64,000 nt of DNA, taken from assembly GCF_014636315.1 (NCBI RefSeq), contig NZ_BMED01000005.1, positions 434,001 to 498,000 on the forward strand, read 5' to 3'. The stretch's first letter is position 1; every line of letters starts with the position of its first letter. The notes beneath the pieces are model-generated. The model saw only the letters and a program-made list of their open reading frames with translations. It had not been told where the DNA came from and made no database searches. A program made the position numbers and the translations under genes. The stretch is from Parundibacterium terreum (GTDB lineage: Bacteria; Pseudomonadota; Gammaproteobacteria; Burkholderiales; Burkholderiaceae_D). Of this stretch, positions 44,646 through 53,475 are shown piece after piece.

Positions 44646-45299
44646 TCAGTCGCTTACCGCAAACAAGCCCAATGTCGCGATAGGCAGCAACGAGGCCCAG
44701 AAATGAAAGTGCACATAGCCATAGGCGCCGCCGATTGCACCCAGCCCAAAGGCGACAATAGGCCACAGGAACTTGCTGATCCTGCCTCGCACTGCTGTGT
44801 CGGCGCTGCCGCGCAAGATGTCCACCAGGTCAATCACCAGTTGCGTCACATTGCCTGTCATGACCGTGGTGGGTGCGATATCGCTCAGCACGAGCCTGCT
44901 GGCTGCATTTTGCACGCCCATCGCTGCTGCGCCGGACATGCCGGCAAGCAGCACTACCAAGGTGTCGTTTGACTGGAGCGGCAGCGCAAAATATCCCAGC
45001 AGCATGAATGCCGTCAGAAAGGCAATCTGCACTGCAAACAAGGTGCGTACAGGGGCCTTGCCGCTGCGCTCCAGCCAGATCACGATCATCCGCGTCAAAG
45101 CCACGGCGCCAACAAAGGACGGGAATGCCAGGAATTTGATCAGCACACCGTGCGAGGGCCGGGCAAGCTCACTGCCTATTAGTACAAAGTTGCCTGTGAC
45201 GTGGGCGGTGAACAGGCCAAATAGCGACACGAAACCCAGGGTATCCACATAGCCGGCGGTAAATCCCAGGCCTATGCCCAGCGCTTTATTCTGGCTCAT
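44646..45299 (-). CDS. DUF1275 (YoaK-type) membrane protein
   Basis: 217 residues, about six hydrophobic helices. GFTAGYVDTLGFVSLFGLFTAHVTGN is the family signature and APTTVMTGNVTQLVIDL the second conserved part. Function unknown. Its ATG overlaps the DoxX stop by 4 bp; it is the last gene of the run starting at 48780. Confidence 0.88.
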   Translation of the reverse strand: MSQNKALGIGLGFTAGYVDTLGFVSLFGLFTAHVTGNFVLIGSELARPSHGVLIKFLAFPSFVGAVALTRMIVIWLERSGKAPVRTLFAVQIAFLTAFMLLGYFALPLQSNDTLVVLLAGMSGAAAMGVQNAASRLVLSDIAPTTVMTGNVTQLVIDLVDILRGSADTAVRGRISKFLWPIVAFGLGAIGGAYGYVHFHFWASLLPIATLGLFAVSD

Positions 45300-45715
45300 G
45301 CGCGGCCCCTTTGTGCGTCGATGGAATAGCGGCCAGGGCCTGCCAGCGCAATGGCGCCAAATACGATCAACAGCAGCCAGCCGAATTGGCCTTCTGCGAT
45401 ACTCCAGTCAGGATGCACGGCCAGCATTGCCACCGCCAGCAAGCCAATGACCGGCAGCGCCGCCAGACGGGTCAGCACGCCAAGTGCAATCAATATCGGG
45501 CAAAACACTTCGGCAAAGATGGCGAACCACAGTGAAAAGGCGCGCCCCATATTGAACGGGTCTTCTATATGCTGCAGCTCGGTGCTGTAGTGCAGGACCT
45601 TGGGCAGGCCGTGCACGTAAAACAGCAGCAAGGCGCCTGTGAGGCGTAAATACAGCAGGCCGAGGTCAGGGCTGGAGAAAATCGGATTTTTTTGTATTCT
45701 GGATGCGGTTTGCAT
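45296..45715 (-). CDS. DoxX family membrane protein
   Basis: 139 residues with four predicted helices. LLYLRLTGALLLFYVHGLPKV and LWFAIFAEVFCPILIALGVLTR are typical DoxX segments. Some relatives take part in redox or thiosulfate metabolism; the role here is unknown. Located between XapX and DUF1275 genes in a tight operon. Confidence 0.87.
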   Translation of the reverse strand: MQTASRIQKNPIFSSPDLGLLYLRLTGALLLFYVHGLPKVLHYSTELQHIEDPFNMGRAFSLWFAIFAEVFCPILIALGVLTRLAALPVIGLLAVAMLAVHPDWSIAEGQFGWLLLIVFGAIALAGPGRYSIDAQRGRA

Positions 45716-45732: not shown

Positions 45733-45885
45733 TCAGGTGAAATTTCCGGCGATGACAAAGCCTGCGGTCATCGCGACTACCAGCAGTGCGCCTATAGGCG
45801 TGGGAGGAGCTGGGGAGGGGATGTCCAGCCAGCGGCACAATGCGCCTATCGCCAAACCCAAAATGCCTCCTATCAGTACGTCCAT
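45733..45885 (-). CDS. XapX domain protein (DUF1427)
   Basis: 50 residues from the ATG at 45885 (GAGAGGA upstream). Two short helices, VLIGGILGLAIGALCRWLDI and PTPIGALLVVAMTAGFVIAG, joined by the PSPAPP turn that defines XapX. Function unknown. Two bases separate it from a second XapX gene. Confidence 0.85.
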   Translation of the reverse strand: MDVLIGGILGLAIGALCRWLDIPSPAPPTPIGALLVVAMTAGFVIAGNFT

Positions 45886-45887
45886 GA

Positions 45888-46112
45888 TTATTTCCTCTCT
45901 TTTTCTATTGCGTGCCCGGCGCACAGCGATTTGTTTTTTGCGGCGTTTGCAGCGCAGTAGCGATCAACCAGCCAATAGCCGAGGCTCATCGTGAACACCA
46001 GCAAAGCGCCGGTCAGTACCGGTGGCGAAGGCACGGGAATATGCAGTAGTTTGCAGCCCACGCCTGTCACAAACGAAATGATCAAGCCCAGCAATACTTT
46101 GGAATAAGACAT
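45888..46112 (-). CDS. XapX domain protein with C-terminal tail
   Basis: 74 residues. Same layout as its neighbour: KVLLGLIISFVTGVGCKLLHI, the PVPSPP turn, then LTGALLVFTMSLGYWLVD. It adds a charged tail with two cysteines (RYCAANAAKNKSLCAGH). The pair probably arose by tandem duplication and may form a hetero-oligomer in the membrane. Confidence 0.83.
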   Translation of the reverse strand: MSYSKVLLGLIISFVTGVGCKLLHIPVPSPPVLTGALLVFTMSLGYWLVDRYCAANAAKNKSLCAGHAIEKERK

Positions 46113-46124
46113 GACGGCCCCCGG

Positions 46125-47987
46125 TTAAAAAGCGAAACAACTGCAGCCCAGCGCACCCCAGAAACCGGCAAACTCCGAGACCGGTACCGAAGAGCGCCTA
46201 GCCTTGTCATGCGAGTGTCCATGCACACCGCATGAACCTATGCACTGGTGCGGCAGCATGGTTTTTTGCTGCTGCTTTTGCTGGCCGCTGACAGCCCTGT
46301 AGTGACCGGGCACCTTGGCAACCGGAGACCAGTCTGGCAGCACCGGAATCGGTGGCGGCGCCAGCGGTGTGAATTCTGCTGCGCCGTAGACGATCCTGCC
46401 GTCCACCATCGTCAATACCGATTCAATGGACTTGATGCTGTCTTCATCCACGCTGAAATAATCTGCGGACAACACAGCCAGGTCTGCCAATTGGCCGGCC
46501 TTGATCTGGCCTTTCTTGCCTTGCTCATTGGAGAACCAGCTACTGCCGGTAGTCCACAATTCCAGCGCGGTATCGCGTGACAATCTGGCTGCCTGCTCGG
46601 CGATCCGCATGCCGCCTACCGTGCGGCCCGACACCAGCCAGTAAAGCGCCGTCCATGGGTTGTAGCTGGCGACGCGGGTGGCGTCGGTGCCGGCGCCCAC
46701 AGGCACTCCCATGTCCAGCATGCGGGCGATGGGTGGCGTGGCTTTGGCTGCATCGGCGCCATAGCGCTCGACGAAATATTCTCCCTGGAAAGCCATCCTG
46801 TGCTGGATCGCTATGCCGCCGCCCAGTTCGCGCACACGTTCTATGTTGCGCGGTGAAATGGTTTCCGCATGGTCAAACATCCAGTGCAGGCCGTCGAAAG
46901 GAATGTCCCGGTTCACTTTTTCAAACACATCCAGCATGCGGTCTATCGACTCATCATAGGTGGCGTGCAGCCGGAACGGCCAGCGCTGGCTGACCAGGTG
47001 GCGCACCACCTTTTCCAGTTCATCTTCCATGCCTGCAGCCAGATCGGGGCGCGGTTCCAGGAAGTCTTCAAAGTCGGCAGCAGAAAACACCAGCATTTCG
47101 CCTGCGCCGTTATGACGGTAGAAATCGCTGCCATCGCCGGGCTTGACCATTTTCGTCCACCTCTGGAAGTCCTCCAGCTCTTGCCCCTTTTTCTGGGTGA
47201 ACAGGTTATAGGCAATACGTACCGTCAATTGGTTTTCCCGTGCCAGCTGATCGATGATCTGGTAATCCTCAGGATAATTCTGGAAGCCGCCGCCGGCGTC
47301 GATGGCGCTGGTCAGGCCCAGCCGATTCAGTTCGCGCATGAACTGGCGGGTGGAGTTGACTTGCAGTTCAAGCGGCAATGACGGTCCTTTGGCCAGGGTG
47401 GCATACAAGATCATGGCATTCGGGCGGGCGATCAGCATGCCGGTGGGATTGCCGGAGGCATCGCGCTGGATTTCGCCGCCGGGTGGGTTGGGCGTGTCTT
47501 TTGTATAGCCTACTGCGGCCAATGCCGCACGGTTGAGCAGGGCGCGGTCATACAGGTGCAGGATGAAGACCGGGGTGTCGGGTGCTGCGGCATTGATCTC
47601 GTCCAGGGTCGGCAGACGTTTCTCTGCGAACTGGAATTCCGTCCATCCGCCCACCACGCGTACCCATTGTGGATGCGGCGTGCGCAGCGCTTGTTCCTTC
47701 AGCATGCGCAAGGCATCGGCTAGCGATGGAACGCCTTCCCAGCGCAGTTCCAGGTTGTAATTCAGGCCGCCGCGGATCAGGTGGATGTGAGAATCGTTCA
47801 GGCCAGGAATGGCAGTGCGTCCTTGCAGGTCGACCATCTTGGTTGTGCTTGCCTGGTGTTGCTGCATTTCTTCCATGTTGCCGACTGCCAGGAATTTGCC
47901 ATCCTTGATGGCGACTGCGCTGGCCAGTGGTTGTTGCCGGTTGACCGTGTGGATGCGGCCGTTAAAGAGTATGGTGTCTGCGCTCAT
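46125..47987 (-). CDS. Amidohydrolase family protein (YtcJ-like)
   Basis: 620 residues from the ATG at 47987 (AGGAG upstream). Metal-dependent amidohydrolase: composite beta-domain start DTILFNGRIHTVNR, metal-binding GLNDSHIHLIRGGLN, later LHATYDES and WMFDHAET with further His ligands, and GAGTDATRVASYNPW with the catalytic Asp. The last 50 residues form a Cys/His-rich tail (CIGSCGVHGHSHDK, GALGCSCFAF) outside the usual fold. Substrate unknown. It is followed closely by the XapX, DoxX and DUF1275 genes. Confidence 0.88.
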   Translation of the reverse strand: MSADTILFNGRIHTVNRQQPLASAVAIKDGKFLAVGNMEEMQQHQASTTKMVDLQGRTAIPGLNDSHIHLIRGGLNYNLELRWEGVPSLADALRMLKEQALRTPHPQWVRVVGGWTEFQFAEKRLPTLDEINAAAPDTPVFILHLYDRALLNRAALAAVGYTKDTPNPPGGEIQRDASGNPTGMLIARPNAMILYATLAKGPSLPLELQVNSTRQFMRELNRLGLTSAIDAGGGFQNYPEDYQIIDQLARENQLTVRIAYNLFTQKKGQELEDFQRWTKMVKPGDGSDFYRHNGAGEMLVFSAADFEDFLEPRPDLAAGMEDELEKVVRHLVSQRWPFRLHATYDESIDRMLDVFEKVNRDIPFDGLHWMFDHAETISPRNIERVRELGGGIAIQHRMAFQGEYFVERYGADAAKATPPIARMLDMGVPVGAGTDATRVASYNPWTALYWLVSGRTVGGMRIAEQAARLSRDTALELWTTGSSWFSNEQGKKGQIKAGQLADLAVLSADYFSVDEDSIKSIESVLTMVDGRIVYGAAEFTPLAPPPIPVLPDWSPVAKVPGHYRAVSGQQKQQQKTMLPHQCIGSCGVHGHSHDKARRSSVPVSEFAGFWGALGCSCFAF

Positions 47988-48126: not shown

Positions 48127-48780
48127 CTAGTGGCCTTCGCTCGCATTGAACATGGATTTTGCGTAGATTAGGCCCAGGCCGTAGCCGCCGCCATTGGTGA
48201 TTGCGGTTGCGACTGTTTCATTATAGGTTTCGCCGCGCGCCCAGTCGCGTTGCAGTTCCAGCAGGTATTGCAGCGAAGTCATGGGGCGGGCGCCCGCTTG
48301 TATCATGCGTTCCATCGCGCGTTGATGGGCTTCGTCCGATACGTCGCCGCTGGCGTCTGCAATCACATACACTTCAAAGCCCTGATCCAGAGCAGAGAGT
48401 GCTGGGCCGACGATGCATACCGATGTCCACAGGCCGGCCAGTACGATCTTGTCTTTGCCTATGGCGTTGACGCGGTCGGCGATGCGGCTGTCTTCCCAGG
48501 TGTTCATCGTGGTACGGTCGATTACGGTTTCATTCGGGAATACGGACTTGATTTCGTCGAACATGGGGCCGGAGAAGGACTTTTCTGCCACGGTAGTCAG
48601 TATCGTGGAAACCTTGAACTCTTTCGCTGCCTTGGCAACCAGTGCTGCATTATTGCGCAGCAAGACCGGATCTATGGACTTGGTGGCGAAAGACATCTGG
48701 GACTGATGGTCAATCATGATCAGTGTGTGGTTGCTGCCGTCGAGCAAAGTTTTGCCTGGTTGTGCTTTTGCGATTGCCAT
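48127..48780 (-). CDS. Isochorismatase-family cysteine hydrolase
   Basis: 217 residues. The triad Asp is D24 in LIMIDHQSQM and the Cys is C122 in GLWTSVCIVGPALSAL; the matching Lys is likely in KDKIVL or the AEKS segment. YcaC-like hydrolases of this group act on small amides or related compounds; the substrate is unknown. First gene of the minus-strand run to 44646, with a duplicated operator-like block about 200 bases upstream. Confidence 0.88.
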   Translation of the reverse strand: MAIAKAQPGKTLLDGSNHTLIMIDHQSQMSFATKSIDPVLLRNNAALVAKAAKEFKVSTILTTVAEKSFSGPMFDEIKSVFPNETVIDRTTMNTWEDSRIADRVNAIGKDKIVLAGLWTSVCIVGPALSALDQGFEVYVIADASGDVSDEAHQRAMERMIQAGARPMTSLQYLLELQRDWARGETYNETVATAITNGGGYGLGLIYAKSMFNASEGH

Positions 48781-48982
48781 GTTGTTCTCCTTGAGTTTAA
48801 CGAAGTAGGTAAAAGTTTAATTTTCGGATGCAGCGTTATTGCCTGATAAATATCGTTTTCTTGCCTTTAGTCAATTCAATTGCAATATTTTCGAAGTTTG
48901 TATTGCGGACAAAAAATTTCGTTTCTCTGGCTAATTTGTTTGTCTTGAGCTGATGTGTGTAGTATGTACGTATAATTTAAGA

Positions 48983-49026
48983 AAGAAAAACGGAAAATTT
49001 ACGGATTTATTATCGAAATTATCGAA
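48983..49026. promoter_or_regulatory. Operator-like block, copy 1 (upstream of hydrolase gene)
   Basis: A 44-bp block that matches 51061-51104 at 39 positions: the first 20 bases are identical, then 13 and 6 more in register around short mismatches. It ends in TATCGAAATTATCGAA, whose first 14 bases recur inverted at 50944-50957. AT-rich DNA alone does not explain a 20-base identity including ACGG. Confidence 0.6.
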
Positions 49027-49284
49027 AATTAAAATAATAAGAAAAAATACACTCCAGGAATAGAGAAATTGGTAAGGGAAATCGCTGGCGACATGCTTGA
49101 GTGTTGCAGCGTTGTTGCCTGTGGTCTTGGATGATCGGGCGCTTTTGCTGTGGCGCGCAGGCTGGTCAGTGACGCGCGCAGCGCAAACCTTAGAGGGTAA
49201 GGGGTAGGCGGCAGCACGAACAGGTGTGCCTTAAAAATCGCTTTGTGCTTTTTGAAGGGGGGTATTTCGGAAGGGGGGAATGAC

Positions 49285-49311
49285 AAAGGGATGCTCAGAG
49301 AGCATCCCTTT
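49285..49311 (-). terminator. Hairpin at the 3' end of azoR
   Basis: AAAGGGATGCTC/GAGCATCCCTTT, 12 bp with a 3-base loop, 45 bases past the azoR stop. The following T-stretch is weak on the minus strand (TTTGTC) and somewhat better on the plus strand. Confidence 0.55.
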
Positions 49312-49356
49312 GTTTATTGCGATATTGCTGATACTGGCGTGTTGCCAGTCTTGCGC

Positions 49357-49971
49357 TTAAGCAGCCAGCAAATCACCGATCGCAGTGCGCGATGCCAATA
49401 CTGCTTTGGCCGTGGCTTCTTCGCCCATTCCTACGCCTTCGGTGTGGATGAACTGGATGTCGGTGATGCCCAGGAAGCCCAATACTGCGCGCAGATAGGT
49501 TTCATGGAAGTCCATGCCTTTGGCTGGGCCTTCGCTATATACGCCGCCGCGGGAGGTGAAGATATAGACTTTCTTGCCTGTGACCAGTCCGACTGGACCG
49601 GTTTCTGTGTATTTGAATGTCAGGCCTACGCGCGCAACGTGGTCTATCCATGCTTTCAATGTAGAGCTGACGGAGAAATTGTACATTGGCGAGCCGATGA
49701 CGATGACGTCAGATTCCAGCAGCTGGGCTACCAGGTTGTCGGACAGCGCTACGGTAGCAGCCTGCTCAGGCGTGCGCTTGTCGGCTGGTGTAAAAAAGGC
49801 GCCCATCATTTGCTCGGTCAGGTGAGGCACAGGATTTTTCGCCAGGTCCAGTTCGCTGATGGTGTCGGATGGGTGGGTCGCTTGCCAGCGGTTCAGAAAT
49901 TCGCCGGTCAGTTGGCGGGACAGGGAGCCATTGCCGCGAACGCTGCTGTTGATATGGAGAAGTTTAGACAT
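49357..49971 (-). CDS. azoR: FMN-dependent NADH-azoreductase
   Basis: 204 residues, flavodoxin-like fold. The phosphate-binding start is LLHINSSVRGNGSLSRQL, the FMN segment GSPMYNFSVSSTLKAWIDHV, and SRGGVYSEG the second flavin loop. It reduces quinones and azo dyes by two electrons with NADH; a quinone-detoxifying role is usual. AAGG precedes the ATG. A terminator upstream separates it from the pirin gene, so it has its own promoter. Confidence 0.94.
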   Translation of the reverse strand: MSKLLHINSSVRGNGSLSRQLTGEFLNRWQATHPSDTISELDLAKNPVPHLTEQMMGAFFTPADKRTPEQAATVALSDNLVAQLLESDVIVIGSPMYNFSVSSTLKAWIDHVARVGLTFKYTETGPVGLVTGKKVYIFTSRGGVYSEGPAKGMDFHETYLRAVLGFLGITDIQFIHTEGVGMGEEATAKAVLASRTAIGDLLAA

Positions 49972-50090
49972 GATGTAATCCTTAGGTTAAATGCTGCTTT
50001 GCGGTTTTATGCAAGGCGTTGAATCGGGTGCAGCTAATTTTGCGTGTAACTAATTGGAGAGGTAATTCAATTTGGCCGAATCGCGCGACG

Positions 50091-50124
50091 AAAAGCGCAT
50101 CACACTGCTAAGAGTGCAATGCGC
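50091..50124 (-). terminator. Terminator downstream of the pirin gene
   Basis: On the minus strand GCGCAT-TG-CACT pairs with AGTG-TG-ATGCGC (two mismatched positions) and is followed by TTTTC. An outer GAATCGCGC/GCGCGATTC pairing encloses it. Confidence 0.75.
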
Positions 50125-50136
50125 GATTCGCTGCGA

Positions 50137-50838
50137 TCAGTAAGGCAGATCGAACAGCAGGACTTCTGCCGCTTCAGCCTGCTTTAGGCTCACCAGGTTT
50201 TCCTTGGTGATTTTCAGTGCGTCGCCGCCGGTGAGGGCAATGCCATTGACTTCGACCTTGCCGCGTATGACGTGTACATAGGCGGTACGGCCGTTTGTCA
50301 GTGCATGCTCCAGTTGATCCGCTCCATTCAGTATCGATGCGTAGATGCTGGCATCCTGGTGTATCAATACCGATCCTTCACGGCCATCGGACGAGGCGAT
50401 CAGCCGCAGCTGGCCTTGTTTTGTTTCCGGTGCGAAGTGCTTTTCCTCGTAGCTGGGAGGAATGCCCTGTACATTCGGCTGTATCCAGATCTGCAGGAAA
50501 TGCAGGCCTTCGGTGGCCGAGTGATTGAATTCACTGTGGCGCACGCCGGTGCCGGCACTCATGCGCTGTACATCGCCGTAATGCAATACTGAGCCGGTGC
50601 CCATGCTGTCCTTGTGTTCCAGCGCGCCGTCCAGCACGTAGGAGATGATCTCCATATCGCGGTGGCCGTGAGTGCCGAAACCGCGGCTGGATTCCACGCG
50701 ATCTTCATTGATCACCAGCAGTGGGCCGAAACCTGTATGCAAGGGGTCGTGGTAGTGGCCAAATGAAAAGCTGTGATTGGAATTCAGCCATCCGTGATTG
50801 GCGATGCCGCGTTCTGTGCTTTTGCGAACTTCTAACAT
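50137..50838 (-). CDS. Pirin family protein (YhaK-type)
   Basis: 233 residues from the ATG at 50838, which has GGAGAG upstream; an earlier in-frame start at 50856 lies before it. Bicupin: NHSFSFGHYHDP, metal ligands in GFGTHGHRDMEIISYVLDG and GTGVRHSEFNHS. Pirins of this type bind iron or nickel and some are quercetin 2,3-dioxygenases. It is divergent from the LysR gene; the 14-bp repeat core lies about 105 bases upstream. Confidence 0.92.
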   Translation of the reverse strand: MLEVRKSTERGIANHGWLNSNHSFSFGHYHDPLHTGFGPLLVINEDRVESSRGFGTHGHRDMEIISYVLDGALEHKDSMGTGSVLHYGDVQRMSAGTGVRHSEFNHSATEGLHFLQIWIQPNVQGIPPSYEEKHFAPETKQGQLRLIASSDGREGSVLIHQDASIYASILNGADQLEHALTNGRTAYVHVIRGKVEVNGIALTGGDALKITKENLVSLKQAEAAEVLLFDLPY

Positions 50839-50943
50839 GATGCTCTCCATTCTCACTGTGCCTGGGCGAAATGCCTTGGGCCATCTGGTTTAATTGCTTT
50901 AAAGAAAATATTGCCTTGCAAGCGAGCCGATATCGGTAATGTG

Positions 50944-50957
50944 CGATAATTTCGATA
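50944..50957. promoter_or_regulatory. Operator-like core, inverted copy
   Basis: CGATAATTTCGATA is the exact reverse complement of the 14 bases at 49011-49024. It lies in the 265-bp gap between the divergent pirin and lysR genes. Confidence 0.55.
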
Positions 50958-51060
50958 GTCGATTGCGTTGATGTTTTCTACTCTTGCCAAATCCCTTGTT
51001 TTGCTAGGTATTTGCTGTTGTTTGCATCAATGGATCGAAGTATGCACGTATTTCATTGTC

Positions 51061-51104
51061 AAGAAAAACGGAAAATTTACCCTTTTATTATCGAAAAAAT
51101 CGAA
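51061..51104. promoter_or_regulatory. Operator-like block, copy 2 (abuts the LysR start)
   Basis: It matches 48983-49026 at 39 of 44 positions. Its last base is the A of the LysR ATG, so the block covers the ribosome-binding region of the regulator gene. A protein bound there would block initiation, the expected position for autorepression. Confidence 0.6.
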
Positions 51105-52030
51105 TGCTACGAATAAGCCTGGATGCCCTGCAAATCCTCGATGCGATAGACCGGCGCGGCTCTTTTTCTGCCGCCGGCAATGAATTGCACCGGGTGCCAT
51201 CGACGATTTCCTATACCGTTTCCAAGCTGGAGGATGATCTTGGGGTGCAGGTATTTGATAGAAACGGCCCCAAGGTCAGCCTGACGCGCGCCGGGCAGGA
51301 GCTGTTGAAGGAGGGGCGTTACCTGCTAAAGGCGGCGGAAGACCTGGAGCATCGCGTCCGGCGGGTAGCATCAGGCTGGGAAACCGAGCTGGGCCTGGGC
51401 ATGGATTCGCTGTTTTCACCGATCTCGCTGCTGGAGGATATTCGAGCTTTCTACACGGTAGCCGATCGTACCCGCCTGAAAATAGGCCAGGACGCGATAT
51501 CCGGCACCTGGGAGGCCTTGCTGGACAGGCGCGTAGATCTGCTGATTGGTGCTGTAGGTGAAGGGCCTTCCGGCGGCGGCTATAACGCAGTCCCCCTGGG
51601 TAAAATCCCATTTTTGTTTGCAGTGGCGCCCAGCCATCCTTTGGCGGCGATAGACCGGCCTTTGACCAAGGCAGACCTGCATCCTTATCGTGCGATTGCC
51701 GTTGGCGATTCTGCGCGTACCTTGCGGCCCCGCACGGTAGGCCTGTTATTCGGCCAGGATGCGCTGACCATTCCTGATATGCGCAGTAAATATTTGTTTC
51801 AACTGGCCGGGCTAGGCTTTGGCTTTTTGCCCGAGCCTTGCGCGCGCGCTGCATTGGCAGCGGGCAGCCTGATCCAGAAGCTGGTGGAGGAGCCGCGTAC
51901 CGATGAGCCTGTATTCCTGGCCTGGCGTACTGGCGAGAATGGCGCGGCCTTGAGCTGGTGGATCAGCCGCATGCGCCAGCCGGGCGTGCTGGAACAACTG
52001 GCGCAATCCGTGCCTGGCGCTGTGCTCTGA
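51104..52030 (+). CDS. LysR family transcriptional regulator
   Basis: 308 residues from the ATG at 51104. Winged HTH: LDALQILDAIDRRGSFSAAGNELHRVPSTISYTVSKLEDDLGVQVF, then the effector domain (about 90-295, FLFAVAPSHPLAAIDRPL). The frame extends upstream to a TTG at 51056, but those codons lie in the repeat block and are not LysR-like. Divergent from pirin. No Shine-Dalgarno is obvious, since the block occupies that position. The shared block makes it the likely regulator of pirin and the hydrolase operon. Confidence 0.91.
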   Translation: MLRISLDALQILDAIDRRGSFSAAGNELHRVPSTISYTVSKLEDDLGVQVFDRNGPKVSLTRAGQELLKEGRYLLKAAEDLEHRVRRVASGWETELGLGMDSLFSPISLLEDIRAFYTVADRTRLKIGQDAISGTWEALLDRRVDLLIGAVGEGPSGGGYNAVPLGKIPFLFAVAPSHPLAAIDRPLTKADLHPYRAIAVGDSARTLRPRTVGLLFGQDALTIPDMRSKYLFQLAGLGFGFLPEPCARAALAAGSLIQKLVEEPRTDEPVFLAWRTGENGAALSWWISRMRQPGVLEQLAQSVPGAVL

Positions 52031-52218
52031 ATTTTGACTTTTGATTTTTACATATTGATACGTATGGTACGTAGCCGTACATAAATCCTCCCCAGCTTCG
52101 GTACAATGCGGCTGCAATATGGAACTGTTCCGGTGGCAGAACTGTCTTTAGCTGCACTACTGTGGCAAACTGCGTGCTGCTTTGAACCATGAATAAAAAA
52201 ACAGGATAAAAACAGGTA

Positions 52219-53475
52219 ATGAAAAATCTGCCTTTTGAATGGCTGGTAGGCTTGCGGTACACGCGGGCAGGGCGACGCAGCGGTCGCAATAGTTTCATCT
52301 CCTTTATCTCACTGATCTCGATGGCGGGCATCTCGCTGGGTGTTGCAGCGCTGATCGTCGTGCTGTCGGTGATGAATGGCTTCCAAAAGGAAGTGCGGGA
52401 CCGCATGCTGTCGGTGTTGTCGCACATAGAAATCTCGGATGGCTCGGGCTCCATGCAGAACTGGCAGGAAGTGGCTCTGCAGGCCAAGAAGCATCCAGAG
52501 GTCAGGGGATCTGCGCCCTACGTGGAGGCCCAATCCATCATGCTGCACGACGAGGCGATGCGCGGCGTGGTCCTGCGTGGCGTGCTGCCGGATCAGGAGC
52601 CGAATGTCTCGGATGTATCCAAGAAGCTGGTTGCAGGTAAGTTTTCCGATCTGCGCGCCGGTGAGTTCAATATCGTGGTCGGCAAGGAGCTGGCGCGGCT
52701 GATGCACGTGAATGTCGGCAGCAAGGTGAATTTGCTGGTGCCGCAGGAACAGATGACGCCTTTTGGCGCCATACCGCGCCCGAAGACATTTACAGTAGTC
52801 GGCATATTCGAGGCTGGGCACTATGAGTTTGATTCGGGCCTGGCCTTTATCCAGATTGAAGATGCGGAAAAACTGATGCGCCTGACCGGGCCTTCCGGCT
52901 TGCGCCTGCGTATTGATGACATGCTCAAGGCGCCGCAGGTAGCGCGCGACCTGTCCAAGATGTTGCAGGGTAATCTGTATATCAGCAACTGGTCCGATAC
53001 CAACCGTATCTACTTTGCGGCGGTCAAGTCTGAAAAAACCATGATGTTCATTATCCTGACGCTGATCATTGCTGTGGCGGCCTTTAATCTGGTTTCCACG
53101 CTGGTGATGACAGTGACCGACAAGCAGGCAGACATCGCCATCCTGCGCACGCTGGGCGCATCGCCAAAATCGATCATGAAGATTTTCATGATACAAGGCG
53201 CGCTGGTCGGCTTGCTGGGCACCGGCCTTGGTGTCGGCGGCGGCGTGCTGGTGGCGCTGAATATCGATGTGATCGTGCCTTTCATTGAAAGGCTGCTGGG
53301 CATCCATTTCCTGGCAAAAGAAATTTATGTGATCAGTTCTCTGCCTTCCGATCTGCACTGGTCCGACGTTGGTTTCATTGGTGGCGTTGCGGTGGTGCTT
53401 GCCTTCCTGGCGACTATTTATCCTAGCTGGCGTGCTGCCCGCGTAAAACCTGCGGAGGCTCTGCGCTATGAGTGA
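52219..53475 (+). CDS. lolC: Lipoprotein-releasing ABC system permease (LolC/LolE type)
   Basis: 418 residues. An N-terminal helix ([23 protein letters not shown]) precedes a large periplasmic domain (about 45-270) and three further helices ([19 protein letters not shown] onward). The end reads [18 protein letters not shown], as in the family. It extracts lipoproteins from the inner membrane for LolA. Only one permease gene is present next to lolD, so it may act as a homodimer (LolF-like), unless a second gene lies elsewhere. It overlaps lolD by 8 bp. Confidence 0.92.

Follow-up and report, generated by a model that had tools for sequence, protein, structure and literature searches.

The closest system described so far to the locus analysed here is the YhaJ regulon of Escherichia coli (yhaK, yqjF, yhhW, ybiJ and ygiD). 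The locus consists of two repeated blocks beside a LysR gene in a 64,000-nucleotide stretch of Parundibacterium terreum DNA (contig NZ_BMED01000005.1, positions 434,001 to 498,000; hereafter the window). YhaJ acts on yhaK, yqjF and other promoters through the operator TCA-N7-TGA, as mutation and gel-shift work demonstrated; a single consensus-base change lowered the induction of yqjF by 98%, and gel shifts showed that YhaJ bound the promoters (PMC5031710). LysR-type systems usually combine a strong recognition site with a weaker activation site, and a 2025 paper on YhaJ states that these two sites still lack a definite assignment in the YhaJ promoter (PMC11739112). Likened by description only, BexR of Pseudomonas aeruginosa is a LysR regulator whose target, a predicted hydrolase operon, has a flavin mononucleotide (FMN) reductase and a pirin among its genes; as a point of difference, BexR is positively autoregulated and bistable (PMC2796861). 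A hydrolase, a quercetin dioxygenase, an azoreductase, a pirin and a DoxX protein are co-induced when Pseudomonas fluorescens In5 meets Rhizoctonia solani, a response to which the available part of the report assigns no regulator or site (PMC5557065). The Pseudomonas regulator PA3225 represses a pirin gene among others (PMC5527654).

The two blocks of the window (48983-49026 and 51061-51104) are identical at 39 of 44 bases including a 20-base exact run, and very probably are regulator-dependent promoters of one LysR regulon. On the sequence evidence a single regulator most likely uses the repeated block as an on/off switch for several detoxification-like genes. The initial annotation, which reported this identity correctly, had proposed that one LysR protein governs a small regulon made up of pirin and the isochorismatase-amidohydrolase-XapX-DoxX-DUF1275 operon, and the comparison across relatives given below supports such a grouping. 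As in the YhaJ regulon, the LysR gene is divergent from a pirin-type gene, pirin-type and DoxX-type genes are among the putative targets, the operator is a T-N11-A dyad and the -10 hexamer begins 59 bases from the box start (in E. coli, at yhaK and yqjF). It differs in its operator (TCGA-N5-TCGA versus TCA-N7-TGA), in the separate clade of its regulator and in the presence of a YhaJ-type pair elsewhere in the genome, and its predicted regulon reaches beyond that of YhaJ to isochorismatase, amidohydrolase, XapX and DUF1275 genes and, in relatives, to YceI. Judged by sequence, this is a YhaJ-like circuit with a changed operator, a known design in which the variant spelling is new. No description of the regulon was found among the literature matches listed, in a search that mostly did not reach subscription journals.

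A closer inspection of the blocks showed that their likeness runs on leftward without a change of register (AGTATGyACGTAT at 48961-48973 and 51039-51051), which gives a true block of about 66 bases. The 14-bp core TATCGAAATTATCG, previously noted at 49011-49024 with an inverted recurrence at 50944-50957, is present at both places. This core conceals a LysR-type dyad, which in both blocks (boxes 1 and 2 of the table) reads TCGA-N5-TCGA and fits T-N11-A, and it is this dyad, rather than the 14-mer, that appears to be the operator. A sequence-only model, R1, was made by aligning the LysR-pirin DNA of 19 relatives, with no window sequence included; these came from a LysR protein search of 145 family genomes, in which 20 of the 30 loci listed (the window among them) have the block at the start of LysR or close to it. 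Since R1, built without the window, scores both blocks very strongly there (E = 1.3e-17 and 3.1e-15), their likeness is not due to chance. In the whole 6.37-Mb genome the blocks rank first and second (E = 1.3e-15 and 3.1e-13), followed by matches at 1.1e-4 and 0.26, and TTATCGAAAWWATCGA, allowing up to one mismatch, occurs just twice in the genome, at the two blocks.

On the minus strand each block has the layout of an apparently entire promoter. The copies do lie upstream of the isochorismatase-like operon, against the LysR start and upstream of pirin, as was first described, but each block would be the promoter of the genes to its left, and box 2 abuts the LysR start codon because pirin is divergent. 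The geometry was measured in 89 promoters, of which 59 precede pirin (58 of the 76 R1 matches in named LysR loci, plus the window pirin site), 15 isochorismatase or amidohydrolase and 15 YceI. From the box start to the central CG of the conserved AAATTTTCCGTTTT element there are 33 bases in all 84 promoters that could be scored (5 were unscored). The distance from this CG to the -10 hexamer (CATACT, TATACT, CATAAT and kin) is 26 bases in 73 of the 89 and 27 in 3, while 13 did not match the pattern. The two window promoters show the same 33 + 26 = 59 bases from box start to -10, and these spacings place the box centre at a predicted -65. No TTGACA-like -35 is conserved among the 89 promoters. 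The CGTTTT part of AAATTTTCCGTTTT is nearly invariant also in the plain alignment of the 19 relatives; the name activation site for this element is our interpretation. The T-N11-A dyad stands upstream of the targets and beside a divergent gene, and the regulator has an N-terminal HTH_1 and a C-terminal substrate domain, the arrangement characteristic of LysR-type transcriptional regulators. The blocks were also considered as promoters of LysR only, which was rejected because the -10 reads away from LysR and sites precede genes far from any LysR.

The other face of box 2 is the start of LysR itself. At 51080-51106 the start codon follows directly after the operator, with no clear Shine-Dalgarno sequence, and among the 57 relatives that have a box close by, 52 have its end exactly at the LysR start codon; the lysR message may be nearly leaderless. 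A possible LysR -10 (TA[TC]nAT) is seen just upstream of the box at 37 of 47 LysR-adjacent sites versus 15 of 37 other sites, three boxless ones having been dropped. This difference, weak and drawn from related rows, is only a suggestion.

The search for the core upstream of orthologues in this genome and its relatives, proposed in the initial annotation, showed that sites precede matching genes. In the 145-genome sample an R1 site (E<=1e-6) is present in 46 of the 51 genomes with a close LysR orthologue (60% identity or more) and in 1 of the 94 without. In this last genome (G102, 1.7 Mb) the site, in locus L094 on contig C117, adjoins LysR matches that are only fragmentary and a pirin that is degraded, and may belong to a copy of the circuit in decay. 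The target set comprised 45 of the 48 R1 matches with E<=3e-4 that do not abut LysR, window block 1 aside; G083:C1:111713 (within L017), G092:C24:30777 and G109:C3:127288 were left out. Counting only genes in the right sense, the nearest is pirin at 14 sites (including the degraded one of L094), isochorismatase at 11, amidohydrolase at 3 and YceI at 15 (one identified by Pfam PF04264, the others by likeness to it), with none at 2 (L070 and L107); in the 43 with a target, the gene begins 27-184 bases beyond the site. Among 200 genomes of the order, a site at 1e-5 was found in three, namely the genome itself, G028 of the same family and G257 of another family, where it lies between a LysR and a pirin.

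Named genomes were scanned as well, and the best 80 of a larger number of LysR loci come from Duganella, Rugamonas, Janthinobacterium, Herbaspirillum, Massilia, Collimonas, Noviherbaspirillum, Methylotenera and several Xanthomonadaceae. In 57 of these 80 loci TCGA-N5-TCGA stands no more than 120 bases from the start of LysR, a stretch in which none of the 80 has TCA-N7-TGA. Of the other 23, 19 have an R1 match before a remote pirin in the same locus and one (L195) has an R1 match at the usual place with an imperfect box; L169, L205 and L216 have no R1 match, and no pirin in the retrieved DNA.

The only solved chains matching the window LysR at E<=1e-15 are the YhaJ DNA-binding domain (9irz) and effector domain (8h58/8h5a), and over 285 residues the window protein shares 38% identity with E. 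coli YhaJ. By sequence it is a sister of YhaJ and not its orthologue, because YhaJ used as query in this genome finds the LysR at C3:670036 first (42%) and the window LysR second (37%), and because the two types form sister clades. In a tree of 53 proteins (29 of the 81 window-type rows, 22 YhaJ-type rows and 2 outgroups) a single branch parts window-type from YhaJ-type proteins with support 97/97, and the YhaJ-type rows form a clade at 90/88, the placement of E. coli YhaJ, a long row, being less sure. Residue 34 of the recognition helix is Thr in 81/81 window-type and Ala in 22/22 YhaJ-type proteins; residue 47 is Gly in 80/81 and Asp in 22/22, respectively, and residue 56 is Pro versus His throughout. 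Residue 36 is also clade-specific, E. coli YhaJ excepted. Position 34 presumably faces the bases, as it does in other LysR structures.

The same genome contains a second divergent LysR-pirin pair, of the YhaJ type (L110, G000:C3:667500-673500), whose pirin is 61% identical to the window pirin and which is preceded by TCAGAATTTTTGA, carrying the YhaJ operator TCA-N7-TGA. In E. coli, YhaJ likewise faces yhaK, a pirin-like bicupin, with yqjF (DoxX) nearby. TCA-N7-TGA occurs within 120 bases in 16 of 21 YhaJ-type loci from the family and TCGA-N5-TCGA in none, and 13 of the 21 have an upstream pirin match at E < 1e-80. In these loci, found by protein and thus independently of R1, the best -10 lies 59 bases from the principal box start in 15 of 16 and 58 in the other; five further TCA matches, with no good -10 at +59, and a sixth in L154, too near the end, were excluded from this count. 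With the -10 at 59 in both types and the boxes TCGA-N5-TCGA and TCA-N7-TGA, the architecture is the same and the spelling different. A second model, R2, made from 15 YhaJ-type promoters, detects the C3 pair in the own genome at E 1.3e-9 and nothing else there below 0.1, and found no site in the window; R1, in turn, matched none of 22 YhaJ-type sources (the 21 loci and the E. coli yhaJ region). Both regulators coexist in 11 of the 51 genomes with a window-type LysR (YhaJ-type LysR at E <= 1e-60), and of the ten YhaJ-type loci fetched from such genomes six have the TCA-N7-TGA box, which is absent from L139, L153, L154 and L155.

These comparisons incline us, with some reserve, to the view that in one YhaJ-type lineage a symmetric A-to-G change altered the half-site while the geometry stayed the same to the base, giving, in some bacteria, two operator-separate LysR-pirin circuits, that residue 34 (Ala/Thr) helps to set the spelling, and that AAATTTTCCGTTTT is the counterpart of the YhaJ activation site. 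The fixed geometry across two clades makes the assignment of YhaJ recognition and activation sites directly testable, and a natural pair of parallel regulators with differing operator spellings in one genome could be used for specificity studies and aromatic-compound biosensors.

In the mechanism that we propose, LysR, probably as a tetramer, would hold TCGA-N5-TCGA at -65 and contact AAATTTTCCGTTTT beside the -35 region. Once it encounters its inducer, which is most likely a quinone, a hydroquinone or another toxic aromatic, the regulator would turn on pirin, with azoR possibly behind it, and the isochorismatase-amidohydrolase-XapX-DoxX-DUF1275 operon. Since box 2 touches the LysR start codon, the regulator probably represses its own gene by lying on the DNA upstream of lysR. 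The third, inverted box in the pirin leader would be an accessory site. The clade of the regulator adjoins YhaJ, and the half-site TTCGA in place of TTCA would prevent the sharing of sites with the YhaJ-type pair of the same genome. The regulon can thus be laid out as a testable map of box, second element, -10 and targets.

Two near-identical copies only 2 kb apart could also have arisen by recent duplication or belong to a dispersed repeat, without any role in regulation. Such a repeat is barely credible here, with just two strong copies in the genome, identity concentrated in the box, the central element and the -10, and sites preceding matching genes at matching positions across other genomes and families; what the initial annotation named as overturning its proposal, a dispersed repeat with no link to promoters, is excluded by the 43 of 45 sites that read into pirin, isochorismatase/amidohydrolase or YceI. 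The -10 at fixed spacing and the T-rich flanks would equally suit constitutive promoters with an upstream AT-rich element and no regulator, but the strict symmetric box 59 bases from the -10, the lack of a conserved TTGACA-like -35 in the promoters compared and the tie between site presence and one LysR gene make this very unlikely. Another regulator might instead own the blocks, such as the YhaJ-type LysR of the same genome, whose pair also faces a pirin and has the same promoter geometry. We regard this as improbable: the operator of that pair is TCA-N7-TGA, neither model recognizes the sites of the other type in the sources searched (R2 in the window, R1 in the 22 YhaJ-type sources), and across genomes the presence of the TCGA site follows that of the window-type LysR, whose gene it abuts. 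That a genuine regulon responds to a signal outside the quinone-like aromatics, for instance reactive aldehydes or another stress, is a possibility to be taken seriously, if not the one we would choose. The targets, which include pirin, azoR and, in L071, a glutathione S-transferase (GST)-fold protein that looks like a glutathionyl-hydroquinone reductase, speak against it; in its favour are the identity to YhaJ of just 38% and the furan-tolerance mutations found in a yhaJ-named LysR of Pseudomonas (PMC11840610).

Several observations weigh against the reading of the blocks as promoters of one quinone-responsive LysR regulon. Sites, geometry, targets, clade and operator split are directly visible in the DNA and its translations; binding, activation, autorepression and co-transcription we infer from them. 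The quinone-like inducer is likewise suggested by analogy, from YhaJ, from the kinds of target genes (pirin, azoR) and from the co-induction seen in the Pseudomonas-fungus encounter (PMC5557065). Five of the 51 genomes with the LysR (G018, G075, G113, G125 and G126) have no strong site. The promoters were lined up on CGTTTT (or CGCTTT, TGTTTT), so that the invariance at this point is partly by construction, and R1 was trained on pirin-side sites, so that the sites it finds lean to that spacing. An exact TCA-N7-TGA is absent within 120 bases in 5 of the 21 YhaJ-type loci (L139 and L153-L156), the R2 search covered the window, the own genome, L110 and L130, and the operator difference, counted over related genomes, is probably one event. 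The third R1 site of the genome (L070:3232-3303, which is G000:C1:1656731-1656802; E=1.1e-4) has a box, an AAATTT element and a CATACT, and inspection of L070 revealed no target gene on its sense strand. It is flanked by the end of a second azoR, which shares 74% identity with the window azoR, and by a convergent transporter-like open reading frame (ORF).

Table. Predicted regulatory elements and genes of the locus in the window
Feature	Coordinates	Strand	Remarks
LysR box 1, TCGAAATTATCGA	49013..49025	-	centred at predicted -65 of isochorismatase operon promoter
LysR box 2, TCGAAAAAATCGA	51091..51103	-	centred at predicted -65 of pirin promoter; touches LysR ATG
Conserved AAATTTTCCGTTTT element, promoter 1	48987..49000	-	assigned by position and conservation
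Conserved AAATTTTCCGTTTT element, pirin promoter	51065..51078	-	candidate activation site, about -46 to -33
-10 CATACT, promoter 1	48961..48966	-	predicted transcription start near 48954
-10 CATACT, pirin promoter	51039..51044	-	59 bases from box start; predicted transcription start near 51032
Third, inverted core copy in pirin leader	50944..50957	+	about 100 bases before pirin
LysR-type regulator, sister clade of YhaJ	51104..52030	+	HTH_1 and LysR_substrate domains
Pirin (quercetinase-like bicupin), putative target	50137..50841	-	PF02678, PF17954
azoR, FMN-dependent azoreductase/quinone reductase	49357..49971	-	Flavodoxin_2; azoreductase subfamily match below cut-off
Isochorismatase-family cysteine hydrolase (YcaC-like), first gene of putative target operon	48127..48780	-	PF00857; YcaC model match below cut-off
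Amidohydrolase (Amidohydro_3)	46125..47987	-	
XapX-domain protein	45888..46112	-	TIGR03510
Second XapX-domain protein	45733..45924	-	TIGR03510
DoxX-family protein	45296..45715	-	PF07681
DUF1275 protein	44646..45299	-	PF06912

The azoR gene of the window has no copy of its own, as was already remarked, and the R1 scan detected none there at E up to 10. This is expected if azoR is co-transcribed behind pirin, as is probably the case, because it follows pirin on the same strand, an order also seen in L071, L080, L129, L164, L165 and L168. In the relative locus L226 azoR has a site of its own, and another site there faces isochorismatase. Between pirin and azoR, at 50078-50129, an inverted repeat (GAATCGCGC...GCGCGATTC) that lacks a clear T run may serve in processing or attenuation. 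For the regulator, the best NCBIfam match, PunR, was not used, since it falls below the cut-off for the window LysR and for YhaJ itself.

The third, inverted core copy is probably a conserved accessory binding site. In 31 of 55 relatives the remaining LysR-pirin intergenic DNA contains a CGA-N5-TCG, where base-composition shuffles average 0.76, and it usually stands some 30 bases ahead of the pirin match. Its use as an activator site for LysR was discarded, as the spacing to a LysR-ward -10, read by eye in the sequence, does not fit.

In the Oxalobacteraceae locus L071 (1689-2720; contig shared with L224) the GST-fold gene lies between two sites, and the LysR-adjacent site faces it; Pfam gives only GST domains for its product. 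In L199 (3075-3707; Lysobacterales, no pirin in the retrieved DNA) the LysR-adjacent site faces a gene for an NAD(P)H-binding (NmrA-like) oxidoreductase. Back in the window, an imperfect palindrome at 52058-52083, ATACGTATGGTACGTAGCCGTACATA, precedes the ORF at 52219, presumably a LolC-like permease, and resembles the -10 island of the blocks.

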